Below are positions 1 through 19,500 of a DNA stretch of 20,022 bases, piece after piece; the first letter of the stretch is position 1, and every line of letters starts with the position of its first letter. The notes below the pieces were generated by a model. The model saw nothing but the letters and a program-made list of their open reading frames with translations. It was not told the DNA's origin and did no database searches. The stretch is taken from positions 1-20,022 of the IMG/VR virus record IMGVR_UViG_3300035201_000055, one strand, 5' to 3'. The position numbers and the translations under genes are program-made. The DNA is from a virus.

Positions 1-1650
1 AGCAAGACTTCCGTTTGTGTTTGCACTTAAAGTAAGTGTAGTTGTCTTGAATACCTTTGTAGATACCTTAATAATACCTGCTTTCTGTGCAGTTGTTGGA
101 CTACCAGATGACTGAGTTGTTAAACTGTTACCATTATAGAAATCATCAGAAGATGTAGAAATATTCGCTGCAAGGTCAATAGTTACTGAAGATCCAGTCT
201 TACTAACGAAATCACCAAGTAGTGAGAATGAAGTACCATCATAAAAATAGATATCATCACCAGCAGATGGGTTAGATGATAATGGAGTACTACCTGTATT
301 AAACTCAATACGAACGTTAGTAACTGTTGTACCACCTGCAATTCCACTTCCTGCTGTAATAGTTGCACCTTCAACAATAGAAGATGGATTATCAACTACT
401 AGAGTATTCTGTCCAGATGATGCAGCGGATTGTACAGTTTTCTCACTTACACTATCACCAACAGTGAATAATGGGTCATTAACTGTCATTTCACTAGAAT
501 TGACAGTTGTTGTAGTACCAGCAACTTGAAGGTTACCACGAATGATAACATCACCACCAGCATCTCCAGAATCTGGATAAGGGTCGATGATTAATTCTGT
601 AGCAGAAGTACTATCTGTAGAAATTGTATTTCCTTTGATCCTGATATAACCAAGATCTAATGTAGTAGCAGCAGTACCCATATTAATGGTATTTGCTGCA
701 CCAGCAAAATTAACTGTTGTTGCAGCTGTGTTCCAAAGATTTTGTGTTGTTTGTGTACCAACTACAGTTGGGTTATTGATTGTAGCAGTACCAGATGTTT
801 TACCAATCTGAAGTGTTCCAGCATTTGTAAATGCATTAACTGTTGTACAACCAGCTGTATTAAGAAGGTTGAATGTTGCAGCAGTACTGGTAATATCTCC
901 ACCATTTACTGCAAGGTCACCACCAATAGTAACGTCACCAGTAAAGTTTCCATCTCCAGGCAGAGTTATCGTTCCATCTAGACCAACTTTAAACTTAGAT
1001 GCACCACCAACCTGTAAATCCATTAACAGGGAAGTACCAGCAGATGCAGTATTAGTTACATTTACCTTTATCGCATCAAATTTATTACTAGCATTATTCC
1101 AAGTACTTGCAATATTTAAAACTGTATCTGCAGCACTTAATGCAGGTGTTGTTATATCAACAGCACCAGAGAATGAATCAACTACAAATCTATCTGTTGA
1201 ATTATCTGTAATCTTAAATAAATTAGTTCCTACTGTAGCAGCACCTTTGAAAACATAATCTCCAGTACCATCGGTATTAAAATTTAGATTTTGGTTGGAT
1301 GTTTGCGTTGATATTTCATCTCCATCTAATCTTATATGATTTACATTGACTCTATTGAGTTTTCCTGCCGAGTCAGCGATTAATGCAGAGTTATTATTCA
1401 GTTGACCGTGAGTATGGTCTAATAGATCGGTGAAGTATTTACCCCCGATAATATCAAGTCCAGCAGCAACTCCAGATGTTTCAGATCCTTTACCAATAAA
1501 CAGTTTACCATATGATGTAACTGATGCTGATTGGTTATCTCCATACGTACTAGTACCTTCAGCGTAGGCAAGTTCACCTTGGCCAAGTACCGATGACGGT
1601 GTAGCGGTTGGGTTTGCGCTCGACCTTTTAATTTTTATTCTAGTTGCCAT
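1..1650 (-). CDS. Tail-fibre-like virion protein, C-terminus cut off by the left window edge
   Basis: I read this frame codon by codon: it is open from an ATG at 1650 to base 1 with no stop, giving at least 550 residues. The start is supported by an AGGT ribosome site at 1659-1662, 8 bases upstream. The N-terminus (MATRIKIKRSS, then GQGELAYAE and YGKLFIGKG) resembles the short Mtd_N-type segment that begins many phage fibre proteins and probably anchors the fibre to the baseplate. Residues about 230-320 are Thr/Ala/Asn-rich repeats (GNFTGDVTIGGDLAVNGGD, TTVNFAGAANTINMG) typical of elongated beta-structured fibre shafts. Residues about 369-395 carry GTTTTVNSSEMTVNDPLF, a motif I recognise from marine myovirus fibres. 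It is last in the run, 20 bases after the 68-residue gene, so it is probably the distal adhesin or its shaft. The receptor-binding tip is outside the window, so host range cannot be read. Family certainty is good; exact role is inferred. Confidence 0.8.
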   Translation of the reverse strand, partial: MATRIKIKRSSANPTATPSSVLGQGELAYAEGTSTYGDNQSASVTSYGKLFIGKGSETSGVAAGLDIIGGKYFTDLLDHTHGQLNNNSALIADSAGKLNRVNVNHIRLDGDEISTQTSNQNLNFNTDGTGDYVFKGAATVGTNLFKITDNSTDRFVVDSFSGAVDITTPALSAADTVLNIASTWNNASNKFDAIKVNVTNTASAGTSLLMDLQVGGASKFKVGLDGTITLPGDGNFTGDVTIGGDLAVNGGDITSTAATFNLLNTAGCTTVNAFTNAGTLQIGKTSGTATINNPTVVGTQTTQNLWNTAATTVNFAGAANTINMGTAATTLDLGYIRIKGNTISTDSTSATELIIDPYPDSGDAGGDVIIRGNLQVAGTTTTVNSSEMTVNDPLFTVGDSVSEKTVQSAASSGQNTLVVDNPSSIVEGATITAGSGIAGGTTVTNVRIEFNTGSTPLSSNPSAGDDIYFYDGTSFSLLGDFVSKTGSSVTIDLAANISTSSDDFYNGNSLTTQSSGSPTTAQKAGIIKVSTKVFKTTTLTLSANTNGSLA

Positions 1651-1670
1651 TTGTTAATACCTGATTGGAT

Positions 1671-1877
1671 TTAGAAATTACCACCTGTTATAGTAAGACC
1701 TGCTTTTTCAACGACATTTTCAGTCTTCCAAGAAGCAGAGATTGCATCATATTGGAGTATAGCACCGTCAGTTGCACCTGTTGTATTGACATCGGTAAGA
1801 CTACCTAATGTACTAACACCAGCAGAAGAAACAGTTAATACTTGAGGTCGATTAGATATAGTGACTTTTGTATTCAT
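1671..1877 (-). CDS. Small fibre-associated structural protein, 68 residues
   Basis: This short protein has no signal peptide or membrane segment. Its middle (GSLTDVNTTGATDGAILQYD, then SASWKTENV) matches the 'L-DV-TTG-TDG-L-YD--W' element found inside many phage tail-fibre and collar-like proteins, here standing alone. The ATG at 1875-1877 overlaps the TGA of the upstream gene as ATGA, which suggests translational coupling. An AGG at 1884-1886 lies 6 bases upstream and could serve as ribosome site. The fibre gene follows after 20 bases. I infer a connector or trimer-assembly role between baseplate and fibre, or a gene fragment split from a longer fibre; neither is demonstrated by the sequence. 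It is a real gene by its tight packing and recognisable motif; function is uncertain. Confidence 0.7.
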   Translation of the reverse strand: MNTKVTISNRPQVLTVSSAGVSTLGSLTDVNTTGATDGAILQYDAISASWKTENVVEKAGLTITGGNF

Positions 1878-2194
1878 GTTACGCCTGGGTTAATTGTTAT
1901 AAGACCCTCAATAACTCGTGTTTTAGTTCCACCAGCAGCTGTAATTACAACATCATAAAGATATCTCCCTTGTTCGATAGCCGCAGTTACTGCAGCTGTC
2001 ATAGCAAGAGTCACTTTACCAGAACCAATAGAAACTGTAAACGCATGAGAAGTTGAACTATAATGGGATTTTTTCATTTTGGCAGCACCACTATATCCAG
2101 TCAAATCCCATAGAGCATTGGAATCATCATAGATTCCAATCTCAGCGGAGAAATCCGCCCCTTGATCAATATAGAGATTGTGTTGTGCAGCCAT
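1874..2194 (-). CDS. Small Ig-like virion structural protein, 106 residues
   Basis: The protein starts MAAQHNLYIDQGADFSAEIG and has an all-beta pattern: DQGADFSAEIGIYDD, LTGYSGAAKMKKSHYSS, GSGKVTLAMT, then EQGRYLYDVVI and TRVIEGLITINPGV. This layout ('polarised input, then a modified chain of residues, then a Y-D-V-I strand and a final E-G strand') resembles the N-terminal Ig-like fold of BppU-type baseplate upper proteins. I recognise close relatives beside fibre genes in marine T4-like phages. It is the first gene after a late-promoter match at 2215-2222. No clear Shine-Dalgarno sequence precedes the ATG at 2194 (the leader reads GCGATAAACCCTA). Its end overlaps the next gene by 4 bases. 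A baseplate-to-fibre adaptor role is inferred from fold and neighbours, not shown. Confidence 0.75.
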   Translation of the reverse strand: MAAQHNLYIDQGADFSAEIGIYDDSNALWDLTGYSGAAKMKKSHYSSTSHAFTVSIGSGKVTLAMTAAVTAAIEQGRYLYDVVITAAGGTKTRVIEGLITINPGVT

Positions 2195-2214
2195 TAGGGT
2201 TTATCGCTTATATT

Positions 2215-2222
2215 TATTTATA
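2215..2222 (-). promoter_or_regulatory. T4-type late promoter match upstream of the 106-residue gene
   Basis: Read on the minus strand the bases are TATAAATA, an exact match to the T4 late -10 element. It lies 2 bases after the TAG stop (2225-2227) of the 73-residue gene and about 20 bases before the ATG at 2194. A second overlapping AATAAATA is at 2211-2218. With T4-like spacing, transcription would begin about 6-8 bases downstream, leaving a leader of only about 14 bases. Late transcription would need phage gp55, gp33 and the gp45 clamp, which are not in the window. Confidence 0.65.
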
Positions 2223-2224
2223 AC

Positions 2225-2446
2225 CTATTGTTTATTTAGGTTAATTAACAAATTTTTGATCTCATTGATCTCAGTCTTCAGTGATTTTAAATCTGATTCA
2301 AAAGAAGATAATCTATCTTTTTCAGATTGTCTGTGTTTATAAGTTTTCATATAAGTTTGGTAATCATCAAGATTGTTGTTTATTACCGCATGGGAAGAGG
2401 TATCCCGCATCAGATCAGGATGTCCTTCAATTTTTAAATTTTTCAT
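2225..2446 (-). CDS. Small conserved phage protein with C-terminal coiled coil, 73 residues
   Basis: The protein begins MKNLKIEGHPDLMRD, then has HAVINNNLDDYQTYMKTY, and ends in a charged helical stretch (RLSSFESDLKSLKTEINEIK, then NLLINLNKQ) with a heptad-like spacing of Leu/Ile. I recognise the 'EGHPDL-RD---A-IN-N---Y--Y' head plus coiled coil from small genes beside the baseplate block of marine T4-like phages; no function is known to me. I chose the ATG at 2444-2446, one base after the TAA of the giant upstream gene, because homologues begin MKNL-type and termination-reinitiation fits. A TTG at 2458 would add four residues (overlapping the upstream stop) and has GAGG about 10 bases before it, so it stays possible. 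The coiled coil suggests an oligomeric linker in the baseplate or fibre base (inference). Confidence 0.72.
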   Translation of the reverse strand: MKNLKIEGHPDLMRDTSSHAVINNNLDDYQTYMKTYKHRQSEKDRLSSFESDLKSLKTEINEIKNLLINLNKQ

Positions 2447-2447
2447 A

Positions 2448-5400
2448 TTAGATAGCAAGTGCCAAACACCTCACATTTCTAATCTTTGGAATATCACTCT
2501 GATCGTCCCCTATCATAGCAATCTTAACACTGAATTCTTGAAAATCACTCATACCTTTTAGTTCAAAATCAAAAGCTCTATATTGAGTCTTAGTCTCTGA
2601 TGATGGATAATTAACTGAAGGAACCTCCATATAACTCATTTCATCAAAATCGCCAGGATCACCATCTCCTTTAGTTTTAACAAATACTTTAAATTCATTA
2701 GATGAATTTCTTATACCATCAAATAGAACCTTAACAGAAGTAGAAGTATTTTCTAAAACTACTTTCTTAGTAATATATGCAGAATGTTTCCCACCTTTCG
2801 GAAGAAGTTCTGAAGAAACATCTAAAACAGCAGGAGTGCCTGAGGTTTCTTTGTTTATTCTATTAGAAATGGTGATAATTGAAGATCCTTCTAAATCAAT
2901 GATAGGACTTAATCTATCGTTAGATGTAGACAACACGAGATTTGTATTTAAAGTACCAGAAAGACTTGATAAAGAACTATTACCTGCTATAGTAGCACCA
3001 GAAGCAATTAACTTTGGTTCATTGAGAATATTTTCAACATTATTCTCGATAACTTCATTGAGTCTAATATTATATGGTACTTGTTTAACATTTCCAATAC
3101 TCTTTCCAGTCAAACTATCTATTCTAAAATTAGCAGTGGTCTCTATAGGAACAAATGATTTAATCTTTGGTTCAATAGATTGATATGCAATATTCTTAGA
3201 TCCTATAACATTATTACCACCAGTTTTCTTAGTAATACTAGCTTTACTAGTAACAGTAACTTCATACTCATCCATATTAATAACATTAGTTATTGTATGA
3301 GTTGTATTTAATTCTTGTAAAGGTATACTATTATTTTGATAACATTGAACAACTGAATACTTATCATGAGTTGCGACTATTGTTGAAAGTTGACCACGAG
3401 TACAACCAGTCAATCCAGTAGCAGTAGTTCCAGTATATGCTATAATTTCATCATCAATTTTAACATATCCTTTATTACTTGTTGATACATTAACATTAGA
3501 AATAGTATTCCACAAATCAGTTGATGTAGCATCTAAAACCTCATCAGAAACAGTTCTCAAGGAAATAGTAGTACTATTAACTGTAAGAGCATCTCCTAAT
3601 TGACCATTTAATGTATCAGATGTGACATTACTAAATTCAACTGTATCTCCAACTGTATGCATACCATGATTAGGTTGTGAAACTTTAATTACAGCTGAAT
3701 CATTGGTACATGTAAATGGGTTATTTGGTAATGAAGACAAAGGAATTGGTGTATTATTTAATATAGCTGTATAACTAGTGTTTGGTGTAAACTTACATCT
3801 ATTTAAAACAAACTTAATATCTTCATACTGATCGGATATCCAAGTCTTATCGTTAGCAGACTTAAATAACACTCCTATAGCTGGTTGTTTGTCAATAATA
3901 AAACCAGTAGAAACATCTTTTTCACCTAATCGAGATACCCAAACATTATAATTATTGGATGTACTCTTAATAACAAAAGCATAATCATTTTTATCTGTTA
4001 GATAAACTGGTTTTTTGAACGTAAATTTCGTTGCCTTACTAGCATCATCTGATATAACAACAGTACTTGATGCTAATGAAACTACTGATGATGGAACTAC
4101 CGTATCAGATGGAACACCATTTTCAATACCTCTTATTTCTACAGTGACAGGAGCTATAGAATCTTTAGCATAAAAATAAAGATCTATAGAACTAAGGAAT
4201 ATACCACCTTTATCATTAACAAAGAATGATTGTGCAAGGGGATCACAACCACCTCCACCAGGCGGAGGATCTGGAACAAAGAATGTTCTAGAATCACTAA
4301 TTGCAACTGTGGTAACTTCTGGAACTTCTAAAGTGGTAATTGTAGCAGTAACATCCAAGGTCGATCCTTGTGAATAATAATTACTTGATGCATATGAACC
4401 ACTAAGTCCTAAAATCTTTACGCTATTAGCATCATCAGCAAGAGAGAATGTTAAATCACCAGTCTCGAATGTTTGAGATGGAAGTAATACAAAAGCTGCT
4501 AGATTACCAGTTTCATTAGACTTTAAAGTTTGTTGTGTTAAAGATTCAGCTATAGCACCAGAACTATTACCAATAACCTTAAACTTCACACCAATTTGGC
4601 CAGGATTTAAATCAGAATCATCTAAAGATCTTATACTATCAATAGCCAAAATATCAGTAGTACCTGTATAACCAAATACTCCAGTAGAAGAACTAGCGGC
4701 AAAATCAGTAGTTGCAACTACATTTGTAAACACATTTGGATTTTGTACTGTTGCTTTAATTCCTTCAATTACTTGAGGTCTTACAACACCATCATCATAT
4801 ATTGGTTGAATGGTAACTGTTTCTCCAATAACAAAAGAAACACCATTATTATTTGTCAACCCTGTTAGTAATTTTGGATATGATATACCAGAAGATAATA
4901 CATCATCTATATGAAAATAGAATTTAGTATTTGGTTTTAAATTTTCAGTAACGACACTTAATACTCTAGATCTACTAAATTTAAGATCAGTTACTTTATT
5001 AATAGTATCACCACTTTCTATATCAAAATTCAAAGATCCAAGAACATCTTGAACACCACTTCTTACCTCAGTTACAGTTGTGCCACCATCCGTTCTAGTT
5101 CTATCTGATGTATTCCAATTACCCCATTCTTCAGCACCTGCTCCAATTTCATCCCATAAGAACCTATAACTATCTACAAGATTAATATTCTGACCATCTT
5201 TAATTTCTCTCACAGTATCATACCAAATATCTTTCTTTGGTATAATTTCCATTTCACCAAGCCATGTAAATACTTCAAATGGAGTTACATTTTCTACCCT
5301 ACTAGCAAAAGAAGTAGAAATATATGATTTTTCTGTGTATGGAATAGTTATATATCCAGTATTAATACCATCTATACCACCTGTAATTGTAGTCGTACTA

Positions 5401-8400
5401 GCACTATTATAACTGAATCCAATACCAGTTACATATGGATAAGGTCTAGCAAGTTTATTATCTAAATCAATTGATGCCGTATAATCAGTATTTGATAAAT
5501 CAGCAACATCAGTATTAATAAAACTATCTACAACAAAACCATTTTTAAATCTATTCCTACCATCACCATCCAGAATATTTAAATTAACTGTATTGTTTTC
5601 TAAAAGATTTAAAGAAGAATATTTCTCTACATTGGATAATCTTGTTTCCAATTTTCCAATATCCTGCATAGTATAATTTCTATTATTCTCTATTTTTATA
5701 TCAGCATCTCTAACATCCTTTAAATATGGTGGTAACGTTAACGTTGCTATATGCAATCCAATAGATTCATCTTCAGTTTTCTGTGGATCTATAGAATCTG
5801 CACCTTTAACAACTTGTATATCACCACTAGTTGTTACATATACATTATCAACCCTTCCCAAATAGAAAGAATAATCTAAATTTAATACAGACGTTGGATG
5901 TACAAATTTAGTAGAACTCTCAATAGATTTACCAGCAATTAAAAGTGGATTTGTATTATTATCAGAAAATGGAGATCCAATAGTACCACTACCAGTAGTA
6001 CCGTTACTTATAACATATCTAAAATCTATTATATCAGCATAAGAATTATAAGTGTATGCTAATGGAGTATCTTTGTATGTTAAATTATATGATTCTTTAG
6101 AATAAAAATCATTAGATAAATTCCCATGACTAAAATGGTCATACACAACTACAAATTTATTAACTGGAGTTGCAGCAGATGTTTTTCTTACTAACTTGGA
6201 TGGTCTATAAAAATTCTCTGTATCATTCTTAATGAATATAAAGTCATCAGTTATATCCTTATATACACCATACTTAGATTCTTTAACAAATACACCAGAT
6301 GCTGTGGAATTATTTGGTATAGTAACCGAGATTGCAAGATTTTCACCACTCTGGAATTTTGATGAAGAAAGATACTTAACATATAATAAATTAGAACTAC
6401 CTTTAGATATTACTTTAGCTCTAATCAATCCATAGACAATAATATCTCCCAAGTTTATATTAGCAGATGAATTAACTGTAAGTTGATCAAATAATTTAGT
6501 AGTAGATGCCCCACTATCAGTTGCTTCATGAATAGCATGAATCTTAATTACATCCACGTTTCCTAAAGATATATCTTTATCAACGAATCTAGTTCCATAC
6601 CCATGATTAGTAGCATCTTTTACTTTAGTTACCTGAAATATCTTATAAGATTCTTTATTTTTTGTTTTAACTGTAGATACTGGTACTCTTGACTTATAGT
6701 AAATATTATGTGCTGTATTAGCAGCTAATCCAGTTATCTTAATTATATTTGGGAAAAGTGGATCTGGAACTGTTACTGCAGTAACAGAATCAGCTGCAGT
6801 GCCAGTCATGATTAAAATATTAGTTGTGTCTACTTCTTCACCAGCACCAGTAGTAAGAGTAACAGCTCCATTACCATCAGCAGTTAATAAAGCATATCCT
6901 GTTCTATAATGACTATAATCCTCTGTTGATGCAATTGGATTTGAATATACTTTAGATGTTAATCCAGTATCAGACTTATATAATTTAGTGACATACTTCT
7001 TAATATCGTAATATGTACCAGCTGTACCAGAAGAACCCAATACCGCTCCAGTAGCAGTAGATACAGAAGCCATCTCAAAATTAGTATTACCAATTCTTAT
7101 TCTAGATACAGAAGATAATTCATTAACAAAATTTGAATTCAAACCAGTAAGAGCAGTACCATTAACAACAAACGAAGCGCCGCTTAAAGCAACAGTATCT
7201 TGTTTTACTCTACCTTCGAAAGAATTAGAACCAGAACCTGATGTTATTGTTCTGACATCTTCTAACTTACTTGGTACAATAGAACTAATAGTAAGCAAAG
7301 AAGCAGTGGTATATCTACTCTGAGATAAAGTTTCACCTAAACTAAATGTACCAGTAACTTGATGTACGTGAATATTATTACCTGAACCAATACCAGTGTC
7401 CCTAACATATCCCGTAGCACCACTAGTTTGACCAGTAACAAAATCACCGACAGTTAACCCAGTTGTGCCTGGAGCTGCACCGAGATTTAATTTTACCCAT
7501 ACATTAACATCACCTACATATAACTTAGTTGTAGTCTGATTAATATTATCAACTAATCCAAAAGCTTTTGCAGTACCAATTTCAGTATTAGCAACATCTT
7601 TTAAAGATAATTCAGCACCAAATCCTACAGCACCTTTAATAAAACTGTCAGTACTAATATCTAATTTAAAATATGATCCAATATTTGCAACAAATCCTTT
7701 ATTTTGTTTAGTAGCAGTATTTCTTGGTTTCTCTACAAGTGCATATTGTTTTCTATCTGATAATACCTCAAATCCTTTAACATATGCTTTACCATCAGAC
7801 AATTCAACAGCATAGTAATCATTACCATTAATTGAATCTGTTGGATCTGATGATGTTGGAGTTCCATTTACAACAGTTCTACCATCTATTAATTTTGATC
7901 CAGCTAAATACACACCCCCATTAACACCATCATCCAAAGCTTCTCTAACTTTAACACCAAATGGTTTAATTGTATAATGGCCAGACTCATCATAAGTCCT
8001 TCTTGCCAAATTCTTTTCCAATTCACTATAAATGGAATTATCTACACGTAAAGTGGATTCACCATCTTCCAATCTCAATATTTCAATGAAATTAGAATCA
8101 TCAGTTATTAATAAATTTTGTTTGGTGAGTGTTATTGCAATCTTTAATCTATCAGCACCAGGCGATGCATAGTTAGTAGTACCTAAAGCATTATCATATA
8201 ATGTATCATCCTCAGATGTAGTTGATATACTTTCTTTTACCTGAAGACCTACTTTATATGATGGTTTATTATTATATTGATCAAGAATAATTGTTTGTGG
8301 TGATACTTCTACAAAATAACCTCTAATGAAATAAACACCAGCATTAATAGTAGCGGATGATCCAGTATATGCAGTAGCATTTTGAACAGCAGTAACAGCT

Positions 8401-8876
8401 AAAGATGTACCAGATGAATCTTGAAGTACCTCATTATTTTGAAATACATTAACTTGAACATTATTTGTAATATTACCACCAGAAGTATATTTTACATATA
8501 AAGTGATAGTATCTTTTTCTGAAGTTGCAGCACTTATTGTATTAATAACTTCTGCTTTCACACCAGAAGTTAAACCAGTTAATTCTTGTCCTACTAAATT
8601 TGTTCTATATGTCTCTACAGAAATACCATTCATAAGAGGCTGAACTAAAACAGCCTTATAACTGACACTATAATTCATATTGCCAGGGATTACAACGGAT
8701 CCATCCTTGAATACGTGCGACCCAAATCTATCAATTTGATTTTGTAAAATTGACTGAAGGGTATTTAATTCCCGTGTTTGGACAGAATATCCTGGCTTAA
8801 AAAGAACCTTTTGGTAATTTTTTGATCGATCAAAATCATCAAAGTACGGAGATATCTTGAGATTAGTAACTTCCAT
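2448..8876 (-). CDS. Giant baseplate/fibre-type virion protein with N-terminal DUF4815-type domain, 2,142 residues
   Basis: The ATG at 8876 opens a complete frame to TAA. Residues about 8-66 (SPYFDDFDRSKNYQKVLFKPG, TRELNTLQSILQNQIDRFG, HVFKDGSVVIPG) are the hallmark of DUF4815-type phage virion proteins. Further marks in order: a conserved helical segment at about 1044-1092 (LTLPPYLKDVRDADIKIENN, then GKLETRLSNVEKYSSLNLLE); a Trp-rich patch at about 1230-1255; a PPPGGGG hinge followed by DPLAQSFFV at about 1534-1556, where a second beta-rich half begins; a 'DEIIAYTG...GCTRG' module at about 1802-1846; and a C-terminal domain at about 2026-2142 (GGKHSAYITKKVVLE ... MSYMEV ... IGDDQSDIPKIRNVRCLALA). 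GE/TSGA-type modules occur near residues 95-150, 470-520 and 790-850. It sits directly after gp8, where T4 has gp9/gp10. A baseplate rim or fibre-attachment role is inferred. No strong Shine-Dalgarno sequence is seen. Confidence 0.85.
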   Translation of the reverse strand: MEVTNLKISPYFDDFDRSKNYQKVLFKPGYSVQTRELNTLQSILQNQIDRFGSHVFKDGSVVIPGNMNYSVSYKAVLVQPLMNGISVETYRTNLVGQELTGLTSGVKAEVINTISAATSEKDTITLYVKYTSGGNITNNVQVNVFQNNEVLQDSSGTSLAVTAVQNATAYTGSSATINAGVYFIRGYFVEVSPQTIILDQYNNKPSYKVGLQVKESISTTSEDDTLYDNALGTTNYASPGADRLKIAITLTKQNLLITDDSNFIEILRLEDGESTLRVDNSIYSELEKNLARRTYDESGHYTIKPFGVKVREALDDGVNGGVYLAGSKLIDGRTVVNGTPTSSDPTDSINGNDYYAVELSDGKAYVKGFEVLSDRKQYALVEKPRNTATKQNKGFVANIGSYFKLDISTDSFIKGAVGFGAELSLKDVANTEIGTAKAFGLVDNINQTTTKLYVGDVNVWVKLNLGAAPGTTGLTVGDFVTGQTSGATGYVRDTGIGSGNNIHVHQVTGTFSLGETLSQSRYTTASLLTISSIVPSKLEDVRTITSGSGSNSFEGRVKQDTVALSGASFVVNGTALTGLNSNFVNELSSVSRIRIGNTNFEMASVSTATGAVLGSSGTAGTYYDIKKYVTKLYKSDTGLTSKVYSNPIASTEDYSHYRTGYALLTADGNGAVTLTTGAGEEVDTTNILIMTGTAADSVTAVTVPDPLFPNIIKITGLAANTAHNIYYKSRVPVSTVKTKNKESYKIFQVTKVKDATNHGYGTRFVDKDISLGNVDVIKIHAIHEATDSGASTTKLFDQLTVNSSANINLGDIIVYGLIRAKVISKGSSNLLYVKYLSSSKFQSGENLAISVTIPNNSTASGVFVKESKYGVYKDITDDFIFIKNDTENFYRPSKLVRKTSAATPVNKFVVVYDHFSHGNLSNDFYSKESYNLTYKDTPLAYTYNSYADIIDFRYVISNGTTGSGTIGSPFSDNNTNPLLIAGKSIESSTKFVHPTSVLNLDYSFYLGRVDNVYVTTSGDIQVVKGADSIDPQKTEDESIGLHIATLTLPPYLKDVRDADIKIENNRNYTMQDIGKLETRLSNVEKYSSLNLLENNTVNLNILDGDGRNRFKNGFVVDSFINTDVADLSNTDYTASIDLDNKLARPYPYVTGIGFSYNSASTTTITGGIDGINTGYITIPYTEKSYISTSFASRVENVTPFEVFTWLGEMEIIPKKDIWYDTVREIKDGQNINLVDSYRFLWDEIGAGAEEWGNWNTSDRTRTDGGTTVTEVRSGVQDVLGSLNFDIESGDTINKVTDLKFSRSRVLSVVTENLKPNTKFYFHIDDVLSSGISYPKLLTGLTNNNGVSFVIGETVTIQPIYDDGVVRPQVIEGIKATVQNPNVFTNVVATTDFAASSSTGVFGYTGTTDILAIDSIRSLDDSDLNPGQIGVKFKVIGNSSGAIAESLTQQTLKSNETGNLAAFVLLPSQTFETGDLTFSLADDANSVKILGLSGSYASSNYYSQGSTLDVTATITTLEVPEVTTVAISDSRTFFVPDPPPGGGGCDPLAQSFFVNDKGGIFLSSIDLYFYAKDSIAPVTVEIRGIENGVPSDTVVPSSVVSLASSTVVISDDASKATKFTFKKPVYLTDKNDYAFVIKSTSNNYNVWVSRLGEKDVSTGFIIDKQPAIGVLFKSANDKTWISDQYEDIKFVLNRCKFTPNTSYTAILNNTPIPLSSLPNNPFTCTNDSAVIKVSQPNHGMHTVGDTVEFSNVTSDTLNGQLGDALTVNSTTISLRTVSDEVLDATSTDLWNTISNVNVSTSNKGYVKIDDEIIAYTGTTATGLTGCTRGQLSTIVATHDKYSVVQCYQNNSIPLQELNTTHTITNVINMDEYEVTVTSKASITKKTGGNNVIGSKNIAYQSIEPKIKSFVPIETTANFRIDSLTGKSIGNVKQVPYNIRLNEVIENNVENILNEPKLIASGATIAGNSSLSSLSGTLNTNLVLSTSNDRLSPIIDLEGSSIITISNRINKETSGTPAVLDVSSELLPKGGKHSAYITKKVVLENTSTSVKVLFDGIRNSSNEFKVFVKTKGDGDPGDFDEMSYMEVPSVNYPSSETKTQYRAFDFELKGMSDFQEFSVKIAMIGDDQSDIPKIRNVRCLALAI
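4252..4268 (-). other. GC-rich hairpin at the Pro/Gly hinge codons
   Basis: On the coding strand CCTCC GCCTGGT GGAGG forms a 5-base-pair GC stem in a region that is otherwise strongly AT-rich. It encodes the PPPGGGG linker just before the DPLAQSFFV motif. The stem may be nothing more than a result of Pro (CCN) and Gly (GGN) codons lying side by side. A pause during translation between two halves of the protein is possible but speculative. Confidence 0.3.
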
Positions 8877-8899
8877 TTAGATAAGGTATTTCTTTTGAG

Positions 8900-8907
8900 T
8901 ATTTATT
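8900..8907 (-). promoter_or_regulatory. T4-type late promoter match upstream of the DUF4815 giant
   Basis: The minus-strand sequence AATAAATA differs from the T4 late element TATAAATA only at the first base, a change seen in marine T4-like late promoters (NATAAATA). It begins directly after the TAG stop of gp8 (8908-8910) and ends 23 bases before the ATG at 8876. It is the only candidate in the 31-base gap. Confidence 0.55.
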
Positions 8908-10491
8908 CTAAAATTCGACAACTAGTTTGATGTCTTCAATTTGATCGTTAGATCTATTAACTGCTTTTCTGTTTTCTGTGTAGATAACAGTTCCACTATG
9001 CTTCTTAACTTCTGAAGATGCATAACCAGAGGTCCAAGACGCTGCTGCAATACCAGAAGATGCAGTACCATGACTGGTATCTGGTGTTACTGTAGTATTA
9101 CTTACAGCACCAGTGACAGCATTTGCTCCTGTGAAAGCAACTTCTTGATACTTATTAGTACCAGCTTGATCTACATCAATGTACTCATTCTGATAGTATC
9201 TAAGAACTTTAGATACAGAATCCCAATGAATAACTCTACCCTTAGCACCAGTAGTAGCTTGTGTAATAATTTCTCCTGGCGTATATGTGGATGTAGTAGA
9301 TGAAGCGAACTTAATTGCCTTACAAGCAGTAACTGTAGGGTCTATGAGATCTGTTGTAGCACCTGCAACGACAGGATCAGAAACTAATCCATACCTTCTA
9401 AACTGGGAATCTACAGGGATATCTCCACCACCATCTAGAAAATCTAGACTTTTATTAATCATTACACGATAACCACCCAATTCGAGTGATGTATCTGCAC
9501 CATGTCCATCAGGAGGTGAAATAATTGCTTTTACGGTTCCACTCAAAGCTGTGGAAGAACCACTCCTTGCAATTGCAGCAGCGGCAGTAGCATACCCTTC
9601 AGTTAATAAAACTGTTCCACGAGTATATCCCTTACCAATCTGATGTAATGTAGCAGAATCAATTTTACCAGAATTAGCACCAGTATTTGGAACTACAATT
9701 GCTGCTATAGCTTTATTAGAGTCTGTACCAATATCATTATCTCCAAGTATAGGACAATAATAAGTACCAGCAGTAATACCACTTCCTCCAGCAGTAATTA
9801 AAAGTTGTTCAATTGATCCAGATCTTGCTGCTGAAGCAGTCTGCACAGCATTATCAGTTTTTACTGGAATAAAATCACTGGAAACAAATTTAATATAATC
9901 AGAAATATTAATGGTGTATAGATACAACCAACGATATCCATCAGAAGTATCAAATATCGATGTAGTAGTTCCAGTTGGTTCTACCGTAGATACCTTTCCA
10001 GTTGGGTTTGTCGGACTCTGACCATTGTATATACATTTATAAACTTGGTAATCACTATTAATCACATAAAATTGTGCATCATATAACTTTGATTGACCAT
10101 TAACTGAAAGATTTGCTGGAGTATAATCATTCTTATACATATCATACTTAAGTCCAGTCTTCCAAGTATTTCTTTTTACTACTTTAGAAACATCTGTGGA
10201 TGTTACTCTTTTCATAGCAATCATATCATCATATATTTCATTCATATCATCGAATGAATCATTTGGTGTTGGAGGAACGAGTTCACTCACTCCAGAAACA
10301 CCATTATATCTTTCATAAGTCCAATTTTGGGGTCTACCGATAAAGAGGTAAATCTTACTCCTATAAGCTTGTGCTTTAGCAGAACTATCGGCTTCTTGAG
10401 TACTCGAAGCGTCAGAAAATGGTTCTGCTAGAGACTCAATAAACTGTTCAGCCGCAAAAACTCGGAAATTATCTGTTACAAGTGAAGGCAT
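8908..10491 (-). CDS. gp8: Baseplate wedge protein, T4 gp8 family, 527 residues
   Basis: T4 gp8 is a 334-residue dimeric wedge subunit that joins gp7 and gp10 in the baseplate arms. Matching blocks seen here, in the same order: YLFIGRPQNW (about 48-57; T4 has an F-GR-EPW block); PPTPNDS with a following DDM and the KRNTW block (73-110; T4 PPYPTDS and RRDW); VYKCI (150-154; T4 VYRCL); DGYRWLYLYTI (184-194; T4 DGYVWEYLFEI); FRRYGLVSDP (about 361-370; T4 FRQISIITNP); and HSGTVIYTENRKAV with the extreme C-terminus (about 497-527; T4 HSGEMIYMENRPPI). The extra length against T4 lies in two insertions: about 218-345, with GGSG/GKGYT-type repeats, and about 385-490, with a GEIITQATTGAKGRV module. 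ATG at 10491 is preceded only by a weak GAG. The stop is TAG. Assignment is firm by ordered motifs; the function of the insertions is unknown. Confidence 0.9.
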   Translation of the reverse strand: MPSLVTDNFRVFAAEQFIESLAEPFSDASSTQEADSSAKAQAYRSKIYLFIGRPQNWTYERYNGVSGVSELVPPTPNDSFDDMNEIYDDMIAMKRVTSTDVSKVVKRNTWKTGLKYDMYKNDYTPANLSVNGQSKLYDAQFYVINSDYQVYKCIYNGQSPTNPTGKVSTVEPTGTTTSIFDTSDGYRWLYLYTINISDYIKFVSSDFIPVKTDNAVQTASAARSGSIEQLLITAGGSGITAGTYYCPILGDNDIGTDSNKAIAAIVVPNTGANSGKIDSATLHQIGKGYTRGTVLLTEGYATAAAAIARSGSSTALSGTVKAIISPPDGHGADTSLELGGYRVMINKSLDFLDGGGDIPVDSQFRRYGLVSDPVVAGATTDLIDPTVTACKAIKFASSTTSTYTPGEIITQATTGAKGRVIHWDSVSKVLRYYQNEYIDVDQAGTNKYQEVAFTGANAVTGAVSNTTVTPDTSHGTASSGIAAASWTSGYASSEVKKHSGTVIYTENRKAVNRSNDQIEDIKLVVEF

Positions 10492-10520
10492 TATTCTCTA
10501 TAGTTCTGAATTGTTACTTT

Positions 10521-10528
10521 TATTTATT
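10521..10528 (-). promoter_or_regulatory. T4-type late promoter match upstream of gp8
   Basis: The minus strand reads AATAAATA within TCTAATAAATAAAAG. The element overlaps the last two bases of the TAA stop (10527-10529) of the giant upstream gene and ends 29 bases before the gp8 ATG. The 35-base gap holds no terminator-like hairpin, so read-through from the giant gene is also likely. Confidence 0.5.
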
Positions 10529-13500
10529 AGATATAATTATCAAAATACACAATATCATTTGCGGAATAGGCTTGAGCTGTACCAAGAACTCCTCTTGTAC
10601 ATCCATCTATCCCAGAAGAAGAATGGGTTGTATATTCGACAATTTCAGCATTAACTACGTTAGAGACCGTTTTATAAAGGATAACTCTATTCGTATCATA
10701 ACCAACGCCAGGATTTTTAATAGTTAACGATGTAACTGTACCTGACCCATTTAGTACTGGTTCGAGAACACATCCAGTTCCCCCACCACCAGTAAGCGTA
10801 ATATTTATATCACGATCATCATAACCAGTACCACCACTTATGATTTCAACCTTTCTAAGTTCACCACCTGAAATAAATGGTTTAAAAGATGCATTAGATC
10901 CACTATGTGTACCTGTGATAGTAAATGTTGGTGAATTTGATGTTAATCCCGTAGTATTATTAAGGGGAATAGTCTCAACCGAATTAGTGATATTCGATGT
11001 AAGTTTAGTACCCTTTCTAACTTCAGTTTTACTCATCGGTTCCTTTTTATATGTGGATGCATATACAGTCGGGAACACTTTATGTGTATTATAAACATTA
11101 TAGCCAGGATATTGAAGGTCTATTGAACTATTAACAATCTCACCACCTTTAGGTATACTTACGGTTGCAGATGCTTTTGCACCAACTCCAGTACCTTCAG
11201 TTCTTAATATAACAGGATTCTTGAATTTTACACTACCAGAAGTAGTTGTTATCGACGCAACAGTACCATTAGAAATCGTTGTAGATCCTAAAGTACCATT
11301 TCCCCATGTAAAGATATTGTCGCCAGAATATGTAGCTGTAGTAAGAACTGTTGGTGATGTGATTCCAGTAATAGTTCTTGCACTATCTTCTCCACTAAGT
11401 GTTAATTGATCTCCAATTACAACTTCATATCCTCTACTCAACACCTTAATATCGTCAGAAGTACCACGGAAATCTAAGATAACCATTTTTGTGAATGTTT
11501 GTGGTGATACAAAATGTATTTTATCATTACTTATATAATAATCATATAAAGGACTTAAAGGATAACCATCTTTTACAACCAAATACTGATTTGCCCATTG
11601 TCTAGGTCGTTCTATATGAGCATTTGGATAGTAAGATGCTGAACTCTTGGTTACAGTAAGTTCAGTAACATTAGTACCATTAGTAAGTGTATCCAACTTA
11701 TCAAATGAACCAACAGATCTTATTGATATAGTGTCACCATCAGCAGGATCTACAGCAAGTTTAATTTGAGTCTTATTATCTCCAACCAATGTATAATCTA
11801 CCTTTGGATCCAATATCAATCCATTTTTGACAACTAATAGACTTGTTTCATCTGGTATATTATCATTACCAATTGTACCTACGGGAGTAAATACTCGTTG
11901 ACCTTGAGTACCATATCCTACAGTCAATATACATCTAGGATTAGCAGACACAAATGTATGTGCATAATTACCACCAGTAATTACAGAGTTTGCAACTCCA
12001 CTATTAGCAACAAATGTATGATTTGATGTATCAGATGACGTACCAACATTAACAGTAATGGTTGATGAAGTTTTTGTAGTAATTTCAAGTGGAGCATCAT
12101 ATGATCTATCACGTTTTCTACTAAGTGAACTAGCAACTGCACTAATAAATGTATGAGTTGTAGTATTAGTTGAAGGTGTAGAATCCAATACTTGAATATC
12201 AAAAGTATCTGTTGTTACATTAGAAATAGGTGCCCACTTACCATTACCCATTCTATCAGTTGGGCGAGGATAATTATGAGTTCCAACACCTTGTGTACAT
12301 TCGAATCTAAGAGCACCATTACTTAATTTAATTAAATCACCATTCTTAAATCCATGAGTAGTAATTTTTATAGTTACAATGCCTGTTGTTGGATTATATG
12401 TAGTACCAGCTTCTGGGGTCTTAAGGTCTATAGTTGTTCTCGGATATGCATGATTACTTTGATTATTGTCTGAATCACAAGTAAATGTAACTGCCCCATC
12501 AGCCAACTTGATAGACTCTCCAACACTAAGTGCATTAGCACCAGTACTACCAATATCTAAAACTAAGTTTCCAGTTGTAGGATCATAAGTGGTATTGTTG
12601 CCAGGAGTATAATTTACTAATGGAGATGTACCAACGTTAAGAGTAATTGTATCTGTAGTTACTGCATCACAATTAATATCAACATTATATTTTGGATCAG
12701 TAGGTCTTGGATAAGACTTAATAGCATAACCACTATCCATATTACATTTGAACTTCAATGAATTTGGTTCAATTCTAACATCAGAATTTTGTATAAGACC
12801 ATGATTAGGAATAGTTAATACTAAATTACCATTAGCGGGATTATAGGTTGCATTAGTCGGTGTAAATCTCTTTCTACCATCAAACAAAGTAAATGTATCT
12901 CCAACATTAGCAAATGCTGTATTAGTTTGATCCAATAACTTAAATATACTGGTAAACTTAATACCAAACAAAGTTCCTGTGGTATGAGCAGTACCTAAAG
13001 TAATTGTATTATCATTAACCCATGTAAAGTCACCTAACTCTGCAAACTTCCAAGTATTATTAGAGAATATAACAAGATTATCCCGTTCTCCAGATGCCGT
13101 TGATATAGACTGACTAATTGTATAATTAGATCCTGAAGCTGATAAGGTAACTGGTAGATTATTACTCATCCTAACCATAAAGAGTTTAGTTCCAGTTGGA
13201 GGAGCAGTAGTAAAATTAATGAATCCTCTATTAGCACTAAATGTATACTCACTTGAAGGATCCTTAATAACACCATCAACAGAAACTAATATTGATGCTG
13301 TATTAGTGGTATTAGGAATATTTGCACCATTAAGGAACATTTTAAACTGAGTTCTAACACCATCGGGACAATAATCAAAATCATCTATTTGAGTAACTGA
13401 TGCATATTTCACAACAAAAACATTAGCTGGTGCAGGAGATCCTGTATGATCTAATGTAATATCATTTCCACTTACTGTAAAGTCATTTCTATCAAGGAAC

Positions 13501-16500
13501 CTTGGAGCACCATCTGCATAAACAACTATTCTTCTATAATCAGCAGCAGAACTGCCTGGCGATGCAGACATAGTTATTTTCCAACTATTGGAATTTACAG
13601 CACTTTGACTAGCAATTGGTAATTCCGCAGCACCATGTGTATAAAGAATCCAAACTTGTTCTGATGCAGCGGGTGCTGTTGTAAATGTAATCTGACTACC
13701 GCTTACTGTATAATCCTGAGTTGGGTTTTGTACAACACCATTTCTAACAACCATTAGATCATCAACATCTGGTGGTGTGAATGCAGTACCACTACTATGT
13801 GTCAAGTTAAATGTTTGTTGATTGCCATTAATTCCAGTGAGATTATCAAGCATTATATTTTGATTTACACCATCATAAGAATAATATCCAAATATTATTT
13901 CATTAGCAGCAGGAGGAGTAGTGAATGTAATTTGATTTGTAGCTACGGTAAAGTCTGTTCCAGATCTTTGCATCACACCATTTCTCATTACAAATAGATT
14001 AGCTTGTATTGGTGAGAATAGAAGACCACCTGAAGTTATTGGGAATACTGTAGTAGTACCATTACTACACTTAAATTCATCTAAAAGTACATTATTTGTA
14101 CTTGATGGAAGAAGTTGTCTATTAAAGAATGGTAATTTAATAACATCAGTATCAGTAGGTGGATCAACAAATGTAATTAAATTACCACTAACTGTATAAT
14201 TCGATGAATCTGGTCTTAACATAGTTCCATTCTTTATCGCAAATACATCAGTAGGATTTGCAACATACTGAGGTACACCATCATCAGATAAATTCCATTG
14301 CACTCTAGTACCTGTTTGATCTTGACCTAATCTATCGAGAATAGCACCTCTACTATTCTCTAAATTGTCTAAGTAACTACTTACATAATCTATAAGTGTG
14401 CATCTAGTAGTAGCTGGATGAGCATCACTAAAAATTATTTGATTCCCAACTATAGTATACTTGTCATGATCAAGTACAGCATTAGATATGCCTGGATTTA
14501 CTTGATAATCATCATCCATATAAACAACTAAACTTTCTTCTCCATTTGTAGGAGTATAATTAACACCATTTCTCTTCAGTGTAAATGTCTTAGTACTTCC
14601 ATTAAATGTAATTGCTTCTAAAACTTCAACAAAACTTGATGAATGTGATGGACTTGTATATGTAAATCGAGTATCATAACCCTTTATACTAGTTGCACCA
14701 GTACCATAAACAGTACCACTAATATTTTTTGCTCTTACTTCATAAGCAACATCTGATGGAGCTTTAACTGCATTTGATTCTATATGTTCATTGAATCTCT
14801 TAGTTCTACAACCCAAAATACCTTGAATCTGTCTATCATTCCATGTAGAAGTATTTAATTGGAAACATCTTGTATCTTCATCAATATACCATCCAAACAA
14901 ATCAGCTTTAGTTGCTGTTGAACTGAATGTAATTACATTATTACTAACACTATAATTTGAAGGTGGAACTATATGAGTCTGGAATACAGAAGTCTCAAAT
15001 ATAATTAATTTACAATTGGAACTAGGTGTATAGTTCAATGTGAATTGTGTACCAGTAGCAGATCCAGCGAAAGTCAAAGAATTTAAATTTTGATGACCCA
15101 TAGCAAATACACGAGAATCATTAGTAGGACTAGCACCAAAATTAACTACATTATTAGATACTGTTAGATTTGCAGGATTCTGTACACTACCTGCAACAGA
15201 AATTATAACTTTACCAAGATTTGTTATAGGATAAACAGTAGACTGACCAACCTTCTCAAATGATAATGTAGTATCGGAAGTTGTTAATGTTTGTGTTTTT
15301 AATATATCAAACTTATTTACATTAGGATGAGTTATATGAATATTATCATTATTATTAAATCCAAAATTTGGAACAAATGTTTCATTTGCAACAGTTGTAA
15401 TTGTATGAGTGCCTGCACCCTGACTAGTTAAATTGATAGCAGTACCATTATTTGCATTGGTAGCAGTTGTAGCAAATTTTATAGTATTATTATCTACTTT
15501 AATTAAGTAATAAAGAGTATTAGTTGTTAATCCACCAATTGCTGTAGTACCAGCAGTATACATTACTGCAAGACCATTACTCATACCATGATTACTAATA
15601 GTAATTGTTTCATTAGTAGTATTAACAGCTGTATGTGGTGCAGTTACGGCAATCGAAACTAGATCACTAGCAAATGTATAACTATGATTTGGTTCCTGCA
15701 AAAGACCTTGCCAGAACACTAGGTTCCTATCTGTTGCATCACTATTACCTATATTAAATGCATATGCATCAGGTATAGAAAGTACTAACTCACCAACTAC
15801 AAATCCAGTACCTTCTCTAATCCTAAACTTAACAAAGTAATCACCAACACTTAAAACATAAGCTATAGTTCTAGATGTAAGTCCAATAACATAAGTACCA
15901 ACAGCAAATCCACTAGCACTTCCAAATATAACTGTTTGGGTACTACATGGAGTCAACCCAGCACTCAAATCTAATTTTTCTGATAAAGTTGTTGTAAATA
16001 CAACGCTACTACTGAATACATCAGCAGGATTTTCAAAAAATCCTTTTCTTCTTTCAATTACCTTCCTACCAAATTGTTTAAATCCTGCTGCATGTGTATT
16101 AACATCCTGTTGATCTTTCCATTCCTTAGTATCTCTAGATGTTGTTAATGAATAAGACCAATCTTGGTAATAATGACTATCAGTTATTTTCTGTAAATTT
16201 TCACTAGGGTTTCCAATAATATCTTTTCTAGTTTTCTCCAACTTACCATAAGGACTTACTTTCGCATAAGCTTTAGATCTTCTAATACTGGTAATTTTAC
16301 CATATACTACTCCATCAGATGTCTTTATAATATTCTTATCAGCATCTGCATTAAATTGACCTGCATCTTCATTAAAGACTAATGTTGATGTTTTTTCATC
16401 AAAACTTACAACTGTAGCTTCTACAGGAACACCAAATATTTTAGAATTAGTTTTATCGGTAAGATATCCAGATGTTGGTGTCCAATCTGGATTATAATAG

Positions 16501-19500
16501 TATAACTTATTACCAGCTGGTAATCTCTTTCTTTGTATAGCTGTTTTAAATAATGCACCAGAACCACTTGTAGATTGTATGGTTACAACTGGTTCTTTAG
16601 TAAATCCAGCGCCAGGATTAACAACAGTTACCTTAGTAATAGTACCAAGAACAACAGTTACAGTAACATGTGCATTACCTATAGATGCTTTAGTTCCATC
16701 TGCAACAATATTATCAAGTAATACAATTGGAACGTTATCATAGTTTAAACCGCCAGTTGGATTAACTCCATTTGGATCAGGTATTAAAGAAATACTAGAA
16801 ATTTCGAAATTATTAATTAATTTAGCTGTTGCAGGAAGATTTAAATAATAATTAACATTTTCATTTGGTGTAAAATTACCTAGACTACTATACTTAATAC
16901 TTCCTAATTTACCAATAGTATTAGAATTAGTTTGTATAACTGCTTTCCCATCTCCAGCGATAGTACTTATAGTTCCTCTCTTAATAAGTCCAGTAACTTC
17001 TGGTAATAACCTATATCCAAATCCTTCATTTGAGACAGAGATTTTATCAATTGGACCAGTTGCACCATAAGACTTTGCTGCATAATATAACCCCATATCA
17101 TTATAATTTAATGTACTTCCACTGAATTTTATTGTAAATTTATTATTAACAGAATCTATATCTGATATTACATGAGATCCTCTATATTCCGATACCTTAT
17201 TAATAACATAGATATAATTACTAGAATGTAGATATAAAGTATCTGGAATTTTAGATCCATCCAATTTAATATAATCGTTTACGCCTGGTTCTGAAATTTG
17301 GAACCACTCATTTGTTTGATCGATCTCATACCATAAAGATGGTGCTATAGCACTATTAAGTGCAGGTGTATATATTTTATACGTATACCTAGAATTTAAT
17401 TCTAATGAATATATCTCTTTATTTTCAAAAACATTTACCTCCACTCCATCTATTATTTTTGGAGCAATTTGAACATCATATAATCTAGTAATTTGTGGAC
17501 TTACTGCTCTAGATCCATTATTATGAATTGCTACTTCTACAAAATCCAATAATCCAGTTACAGGATCTAATGGTTGTGTATAATCAAAATAAACATAATC
17601 TCCTATGGCTAGGTAATGTGGATCATTAGTCTGGAATGTTACATTCAATCCATCAGAAGATTTTACAAGATCTATAGATCCATCAGTTTTTTTCCTAAGA
17701 TCTTTACCACGAACTCTCGATACAAAAGCAGAAAAATCACTGCCAAATGTCTTTGAATTATCTACTGTAAGTCTATCACCAACACCATAATTATCACCAG
17801 CAGATTCTACAATTACACTATCAACAGTACCTTGAGATTTATCTCCAGTATTTGCAATAGTTCGATTTAACCTAATATCTTCTTGTGGATATTCATTATT
17901 AGATGGAAGACCTCTAAATGCAGGAGCTCCATTAATTACTGTAGGAATATCATCAATCTGTTTCTCATATGCTCTTGTAAATGCTTTTGGAATCTTATCA
18001 TTTGTTCTAGCTTGATTATTCATATAACCATCACATTCACCAGCAAACTTATCTCCTATAAAATATGGAAATCCATTGAAATTAATACCATTATTGTTTG
18101 CTGCAGCAAGATTAACTAATTCATTAGTAATACCATCAAATGAAGATGTAGTTATAAAATAAAGATATCTACCATCTGGGAAATCTGGTGTTACACAGAA
18201 TCTACCATTATGTTGATCTAGATCATCTAATGTACCTTGATCAAATTCATAATCTTCTATAAAAGTACCAATTGGATATTCTGATATAGAAGGTCCACCA
18301 TCCCTATCCAAAGTAACATACTTATTAACTCCTTGTACATTAAATGGTCCTAATGCACCAGCAGTACCTGCAGCAACTTCTGTATATTTTAACCTATATC
18401 TAGATTGTATCTCACTGAGTCCTGTTCCAGTACCAAGATCAGGAACATTTCTTACTGTATTTACTTTCTTACCACTATAAAATGGAATACCATCATAAGA
18501 AACTCCCATTACTGGAGTATGAACTGGTATTGCATCTAACTGGGTAACATAATTACTATTAGCATCCGCCCATACTTTAAATGGTTTAGTACCATCTGGA
18601 TTAGTTGCACTAATAAGAGAAGAATCTAAAGTACTAGGAATAGTAGCTGCTCTTGCATTAGCAACATTCTTTTCGTAAATATACCTTGCTCTTAGTCTAT
18701 CAGCACCATGCATTAAGTAGTATTGTTTTTCATTTATATCTTTTGGAAAATCTAACGCATAATTGAAGTAATCAAATCCTCTTTCATTATCAGTGGATGG
18801 TTTCTTATCGCCACTATCATATACATATCCACCATAATCATCCAAACGACCATCTTTTTTAAACCTTCTAATTAAATTAAAAGTCCATTCCTTTAATCTA
18901 GGTGTAACTCCACCATTAGTTCCCAATGGAGTTATAACAACTCTTGGTGTAGTTCTGTATCCACTACCCTTATTAACTATATTAAACCTTGTTATTTGAC
19001 CAGAATCATTAGTTTCTGCTGTAAGTACTCCACCAGTACCACCCCCTCCACTAAGAGTTATTGTAGGTGGAATAAAGTAGTTCTCGCCTGGATTTGTTAT
19101 AACAATATTAAATAACGCTCCATTTGCAACATAAGCTGTCGCTGCAGCATTTTTACCATCACTAATCTTAATTGTTGGTTGTTTTATAAAATCTTGAGTA
19201 GTTAATCCAGTTGCATCAATCTCATTTGAATTTGTTTTATTAAAATTATCATATGATATTAAAGATCCACTAGTTTCAATCATTCTAATATCATCAACTT
19301 GGAAAGGAATATCAATAACATCTGATTTTCCACCACCACTTATTCTAATAGTAGGTAATTCAATATAACCAGAACCAGATTCTTTTATAACAATATTGTC
19401 AATATTTCCATTAGCATAACTAATATCTAATACAGCAGGTTTAAATCCAGCTGGGTTAAGTTTATCAGTTTCAAAACTAAACAGAACTGGTGGATTTGTT

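Follow-up and report, generated by a model that had tools for sequence, protein, structure and literature searches.

A putative fibre-attachment unit headed by a T5-type collar homologue in T4-like phages

We analysed a virus contig of 20,022 bases (IMG/VR record IMGVR_UViG_3300035201_000055, positions 1 to 20,022; hereafter the window), in which three consecutive genes encode an Ig-like protein of 106 amino acids (aa) related to the fibre collar protein LtfC, a protein of 68 aa (p68) and a tail fibre. Judged from sequence, these genes probably constitute a fibre-attachment unit with a late promoter of its own, in which the collar would grip p68 and short C-terminal tags would plug into N-terminal domains (N-domains) of the fibre proteins. 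The evidence comprises the homology and predicted fold of the LtfC-like protein, the order of the genes, the existence of split and fused forms of p68, the enrichment of the tag and its co-occurrence with the N-domain. We give even chances to a broader proposal, namely that Kyanoviridae and their relatives use a plug-and-socket fibre code, where seven-residue tags, beginning with that of the collar-bound p68, would enter Mtd_N-like domains of the following segments and fibres could be inserted, stacked or skipped (as in S-T4) with the collar left untouched.

The LtfC-like protein (1874..2194, minus strand, as are all genes of this finding) had been described as Ig-like in an earlier reading of the letters alone (the sequence-only reading). 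Structure prediction and comparison back this fold, and the protein turns out to be a homologue of the T5-type fibre collar. It matches phrog_1084 (E = 2e-27) and phrog_3304, 'L-shaped tail fiber protein assembly' (2.1e-20), and its AlphaFold2 (AF2) model is an Ig-like beta-sandwich with a predicted local distance difference test score (pLDDT) of 94. Among the best 1000 chains by Foldseek rank, VIA placed DT57C LtfC first (8hqz_T, Z 11.5) and T5 p132 second (7qg9_L, Z 11.4), both with 106/106 residues aligned, a root mean square deviation of 2.4 and 26% identity. The next chain, a Douge baseplate protein with 8% identity, has a Z of 10.8, which is within 1 of the best and is hence tied in Z. 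When the LtfC profile (A3) was compared with all PDB chains, it retrieved 7qg9 (E = 9.7e-6) and 8hqz (6e-5), the following match being at 0.018; the single LtfC-like sequence did not find p132 or LtfC in the PDB at E = 1, and its best match, at 0.47, was not p132. The Pfam family LtfC (PF23926) is matched at E = 0.01 by 21 of the 34 LtfC members, the window's included. Both homology to the p132/LtfC family and an Ig-like fold over the full length were thus found. Relatives of this protein occur in 110 phage records, and a scan of viral contigs gave at least 600 stretches, with 595 of those listed confirmed; over the relatives compared, LtfC is 42-95% identical to the window's. The name 'L-shaped tail fiber protein assembly' is already carried by LtfC relatives in public records. 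Hence, the collar homology is already in the annotation, and is new only in its implication.

The genes are arranged in the order gp8 (PF09215), a giant with DUF4815, a 73-aa protein (cc73), the LtfC-like protein, p68 and the fibre. The sequence-only reading had noticed three small genes in series between the giant and the fibre; they are there, and the order recurs in relatives, namely Kyanoviridae and allied phages of Synechococcus, Prochlorococcus, Pelagibacter and Methylophilales. It had also placed a promoter before the second small gene, and we identify it as a T4-type late promoter, TATAAATA (2215..2222, minus strand), which begins 28 nucleotides (nt) upstream of the LtfC-like gene, that is, a short distance upstream of a late gene. 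After dropping loci with identical upstream 60-mers, 93 distinct loci were left, the window's among them, and 67 of these have TATAAATA no more than 120 nt ahead of LtfC. The corresponding frequencies are 7/74 upstream of p68, 1/56 upstream of the fibre and 358/18,600 in random 120-nt windows. Since the promoter lies mainly upstream of LtfC, LtfC is most likely the first gene of a late transcription unit that also covers p68 and the fibre, and cc73 most likely belongs to the preceding unit. The coupling of the second and third genes is as previously read: by the gene calls, the LtfC-like stop and the p68 start overlap in an ATGA (1874..1877, minus strand), and such a 4-nt overlap is the commonest spacing between LtfC and p68 (28 of 81 distinct p68 genes).

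The p68 gene (1671..1877, minus strand) had been credited with a fibre-type motif. In line with this, its product matches phrog_13853 (5.6e-11); there are also weak matches to segments of longer phage families, for example phrog_9627 (2.7e-4) and phrog_11660 'tail protein' (0.0055). Out of 99 distinct loci that extend far enough downstream, 78 have a separate p68-type gene of 68-112 aa directly behind LtfC (identical LtfC or p68 sequences were dropped here and in the cc73 counts). In three loci the gene after LtfC is instead the long fibre itself, with the p68 domain fused to it as its N-terminus (HTVC008M, DSL-LC03 and, by a weak match of E = 7e-4, L131). In DSL-LC03, the p68 part passes straight into the start of the fibre N-domain. 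The other loci have either another p68-bearing protein (5) or no p68 by profile (13), and in four of the latter (L092, L099, L100 and L119) the next protein still has a tag-like end. Because the split form occurs in 78/99 loci and the fused one in three, p68 is best read as the N-terminal head of the fibre encoded as a gene of its own, which favours the earlier suggestion that it is a split-off fibre piece. Its N-terminal part appears to hold two short strand-like stretches, as in DT57C LtfA, and by analogy with that protein we propose its first ~25 residues (1803..1877, minus strand) as a strand-donating collar anchor. Searches with p68 itself gave little: tblastn against phages had no match, a scan of the collection with the p68 alignment was unproductive owing to too little conservation, and the best PDB match of the p68 profile (E = 0.089, GAPDH) was taken as chance.

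The expectation that this gene set lies near the fibre in relatives holds in part. The order recurs, but in L052, L096, L101 and Bellamy LtfC is followed by a gp13-like gene, with neither p68 nor fibre, and S-T4 has p68 and no fibre at the locus. Three loci (L006, L056 and L244, of which the first and last are S-SSM7 and S-CAM3) have, after LtfC, a 224-241-aa protein of another kind that ends in LKLKL or MKLAL; it has neither tag nor N-domain, and is perhaps a different fibre head.

The fibre gene (1..1650, minus strand) is open at the window edge and encodes at least 550 aa; in the closest contigs complete fibres have 674-735 aa and end in VDGGTY. In two loci (L008 and L011) the fibre is followed by a 275-aa gene. 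The proposed socket is the N-domain (IKIKRSS...GELAY...LFIG; 1441..1650, minus strand), whose consensus across relatives is xIxIKRS...GELAY...LFIG...IGG. The family Mtd_N (PF18454) matches 5 of the 18 N-domain members (best E = 6.3e-5) and not the window's fibre. Across the relatives compared, leaving out the fused DSL-LC03 protein (L007), the N-domain is 41-93% identical to the window's; complete separate fibres range from 559 to 1121 aa, with body matches down to about 31%. The attachment end of the fibre thus seems better conserved than its body, which fits the idea of an exchangeable fibre. The adaptor set for such a fibre put forward by the sequence-only reading gains from the collar homology and the variable fibre body, but loses its coiled-coil member, as discussed below. 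The N-domain was found in 10 of the 14 genomes searched; it sits on the fibre, with one more protein carrying it in several of them (2425 aa in P-HM1, 517 aa in Melnitz-1, 126 aa in Mosig and 2241 aa in DSL-LC03). The model of a 129-aa relative consisting of N-domain and tag (L127) has weak counterparts by VIA, these being small trimerisation domains, with that of collagen XVIII as the best (Z 3.6), and Mtd reaches Z 2.0.

Both p68 and the fibre end in a common C-terminal tag, Φ-D/N-G-G-x-F/Y, which in the window's p68 reads TITGGNF (1674..1694, minus strand) and is the proposed plug for the fibre N-domain. Once identical C-terminal 60-mers were dropped, GG.[FY] was found at the very end of 48/91 first genes and 70/88 second genes after LtfC (together 118/179), compared with 10/201 third to fifth genes and 0/557 genes at other positions; the chance of such an end from composition is 0.00056. 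The lower count for p68 is partly due to variants such as INCGNF: of 81 distinct copies, all end in F or Y and 78 have G at -3. A cysteine replaces the first tag glycine (residue -4; INCGNF/Y) in 26 of these 81 copies and in none of the 59 fibres of the set, and the S-CAM9 fibre ends in DCGTY. The logo of the fibre ends is biased, as it was drawn from proteins preselected by a G.[FY] end, so that the GG.[FY] count is the unbiased figure for fibres. In P-HM1, Mosig and Melnitz-1 (218, 186 and 205 genes) the tag occurs on p68 and the fibre only, two looser forms being counted, and DSL-LC03, where p68 and fibre are one chain, has a single tag-bearing protein among its 206 genes.

Several further arrangements around the tag were seen. 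L130 encodes four consecutive proteins with GG..F-like ends (178, 74, 644 and 251 aa; 6346-12326), of which the 74-aa one is almost only an N-domain plus a tag. In L016, L036, L039 and their kin, the tagged fibre is often separated from gp13 by a gene of 66-75 aa, read by eye as a coiled coil; its 78-aa counterpart in RN05-S ends in DGGTFE, close to the tag.

The tag and the free N-domain go together. Among 19 genomes, which are related and are therefore not independent events, both are present in 12 and both absent in 7, after five tag matches judged false were dropped by hand. These were a 1008-aa protein of S-SSM7 and a 692-aa protein of Bellamy with glycine-rich ends, spurious small open reading frames of 62 aa (G006) and 105 aa (G004), and a 353-aa protein of RN05-S. 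Matches to the N-domain inside a chain, at residue 65 in DSL-LC03 and residue 62 in Bellamy, were not counted as free. In the first 12 genomes, for which the counting rules were settled after seeing the data, the number of tags equals the number of free N-domains in all 12, with three false tag matches dropped. Some genomes lie at the edge of these rules: G004 was counted as 0 and 0, its p68 relative ending in MDLGTY and the next protein starting with an IKRTT motif, both below the rules; a 178-aa p68 relative in G006 that ends in GGDAGFF was left uncounted; and G001 (104,877 bases) and G010 (107,375 bases) are possibly fragments. S-T4 is an instructive case: its p68, which has one tag, is followed by gp13 and not by a fibre, and still the genome has one N-domain protein (836 aa), about 82 kb off. 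At the level of neighbouring genes, we counted 101 pairs in 94 loci with a tag on one gene and an N-domain on the next, whereas 2000 permutations gave a mean of 67 and a maximum of 84; this test is not blind, since such fibre genes were also the source of the N-domain profile. More generally, profiles A2 and A4 derive from genes at this location, and hence favour it. An earlier count by regular expression, which had given 83 tag-then-domain pairs, is superseded by the profile-based 101.

From these elements, attachment would most likely proceed as follows. The LtfC-like collar would oligomerise on the tail end and grip the fibre complex at its N-termini by strand addition, as suggested by its homology with T5 p132 and DT57C LtfC. 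The N-terminal strands of p68 would be inserted into this collar, and its C-terminal tag would dock into the Mtd_N-like N-domain of the fibre. The tag of the fibre itself would in turn enter the N-domain of a distal protein, whose gene may lie close by or in another part of the genome. Any fibre whose N-domain fits would then be exchangeable or stackable, the collar remaining unchanged.

A number of results weigh against this scheme. By sequence we take the window's protein to be a homologue of p132, yet it falls outside Pfam's LtfC by the curated cut-off, with 24.8 bits (E = 3.4e-5) for a gathering threshold of 27 bits. In T5, p132 surrounds a ring of the bare tube, and a T4-like tail, being sheathed, does not present such a ring in the same manner. 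The N-terminus of T5 Ltf scores only 4.9 against the p68 profile, a weak value reached by 63 of 2000 shuffles. In seven further genomes, analysed with the rule frozen, the raw tag count equalled the raw number of free N-domains in four; hand cleaning (two false matches dropped and the DSL-LC02 N-domain recognised by eye) raised this to six, and RN05-S still has 3 tags for 2 N-domains. P-HM1 has a third, weak N-domain match in a 4448-aa frame (E = 0.018), and the equality there breaks if it is counted. Among 150 adjacent pairs with a tagged first gene, 49 lack an N-domain in the second. Tags are also found on proteins of other kinds (251 aa in L130; 188 and 171 aa in L110), and the tag in the AF2 model of the 129-aa L127 relative has a pLDDT of about 51. 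Finally, the fibre gene is followed, in the clade of the window, by one for a coiled coil or gp13, so the partner of the fibre must lie elsewhere.

Could the tag be something other than a plug? It might be a recognition signal for one shared assembly factor, which may be a chaperone or the coiled coil encoded after the fibre, with no link between p68 and fibre or between fibre and distal protein. In its favour, the same tag is found on p68, on the fibre and on some proteins of other kinds, and the fibre is often followed by the 66-75-aa coiled coil in the window's clade. However, tag presence follows that of the free N-domain in 19/19 genomes after cleaning, and there is no tag at the joint of the fused HTVC008M and DSL-LC03 proteins, which leaves this explanation doubtful. 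We consider very unlikely that the tag is the partnerless last strand of a common trimeric fibre-end module, shared by descent from fibre ends. The ends of p68 and fibre do share, by eye, x-[IV]-L-x-x-[DN]...W before the tag, but in the genomes searched whole the true tags are in the unit behind LtfC, the neighbours of tagged genes pair with the N-domain, and the tag extends to proteins of other kinds.

Other alternatives concern the proteins at either side of the proposed joint. That the LtfC-like protein is a general baseplate adaptor of the Ig/BppU type, serving other parts and not specifically this fibre, seems unlikely to us: the profile and the full-length alignment single out the T5/DT57C collar proteins, and in RN05-S the small terminase subunit gene is followed by a group made up of LtfC, two small tag-bearing, p68-type proteins and the fibre, away from the giant. 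This alternative can nevertheless draw on Foldseek's own ranking, which puts the 80alpha baseplate and other phage Ig-like parts on top, on the BppU N-terminal domain (PF10651), matched by 3 of the 34 LtfC members (best E = 1.7e-4) and not by the window's protein, and on the four loci mentioned above where LtfC adjoins neither p68 nor fibre. As for p68, its likeness to a fibre piece and its fusion in some relatives would suit a decaying, functionless remnant of a fibre gene. Yet debris would hardly be kept as a separate open gene of 68-112 aa in 78/99 loci, with F or Y at the end of every one of the 81 distinct copies; we rejected this candidate, and find it extremely improbable.

The first of the three small proteins, cc73 (2225..2446, minus strand), starts right behind the end of the DUF4815 (VrlC-type) baseplate giant (2448..8876, minus strand, 2142 aa; PF16075, E = 2.2e-59). 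The heptads, read by eye, agree with the coiled coil noticed before, and the protein matches phrog_473 'virion structural protein' (1.4e-21), as which its homologues are also annotated; virion proteomics is available for S-SM1 from the 2010 cyanophage comparison (according to an excerpt of PMC3037559). Its membership in the adaptor set, as proposed by the sequence-only reading, was rejected: only 39 of 95 loci have cc73 immediately ahead of LtfC, and 15 more have it within the locus without adjacency, and in RN05-S (L250) the giant and a small 'virion structural protein' gene, taken as the cc73 counterpart by its place and name, adjoin the neck genes, apart from the block with LtfC and the fibre. 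Hence, as far as gene positions tell, cc73 is better assigned to the baseplate unit than to the fibre unit. Upstream of gp8, another giant (10527-20021, minus strand, 3164 aa, open) has a YHYH domain (PF14240, 7.5e-16), as well as weak T7 tail-fibre and DUF2460 matches, both below the cut-off. The naming of such giants is in conflict: VrlC, the DUF4815 giant, replaces T4 gp7 according to an excerpt of PMC7029224, and the annotation of P-HM1 has the name gp7 both on the giant before gp8 and on another giant behind the fibre.

The closest known parallel of the unit is the T5/DT57C collar. Excerpts of PMC10038345 and PMC10713586 describe p132/LtfC as a dodecameric collar in which the N-termini of the L-shaped tail fibre are intertwined; in DT57C these N-termini donate strands to the collar (PMC10713586, excerpt). 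The same excerpt names T5.135/136, the product of the gene before ltf, as the LtfC homologue, and this gene overlaps ltf by 1 nt; in the window p68 stands between the LtfC-like gene and the fibre, which in the fused HTVC008M and DSL-LC03 forms follows LtfC directly. In the window a homologous Ig-like collar protein, whose predicted fold matches over the full length, heads the fibre block, and we propose that the fibre N-terminus would be gripped by it. The systems differ in that the phage is here contractile and T4-like, and the fibre head is usually a separate small tagged protein. Moreover, p132 is described in an excerpt of PMC10038345 as a landmark confined to T5-like phages, whereas its relatives are here found in the 110 phage records cited above. 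If a contractile phage does have a T5-type collar, such a restriction of the anchor would not hold. In the titles found by our literature search, how variable fibres are held in T4-like phages of cyanobacteria, SAR11 and OM43 was the topic of none, and keyword searches of the open-access literature brought up no title or beginning of an abstract that mentions either the split head or the pairing of tag and domain.

The socket recalls Mtd of Bordetella phage BPP-1 through the PF18454 matches of some fibre N-domains, with the difference that the window's own fibre has none. PF18454 is the N-terminal domain of the receptor-binding tip protein Mtd. The BPP-1 gene just upstream of mtd, bbp9, was checked for a tag at the end of its product, and has none. 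The place of the unit in the structural operon, from gp8/VrlC to the neck genes, is that of the T4 gp8-to-gp13 region and of the 'host recognition cluster' of pelagimyophages. In T4, this region holds gp9-gp12 and wac; when compared with Pfam and PHROGs at E = 0.1, the small proteins studied here matched no T4 gp9-gp12 or wac family. The cluster was named in PMC7029224, an excerpt of which mentions Mtd and YadA domains among the structural proteins. Lastly, the branched receptor-binding complexes of Ackermannviridae and the LtfA-LtfB pair of DT57C reportedly also join several chains by dedicated docking modules. Here, in contrast, the modules would be a C-terminal tag of seven residues and a small domain at the N-terminus, and if the tag does predict fibre-joining proteins, fibre parts could be recognised in metagenomes from nothing but their sequences.

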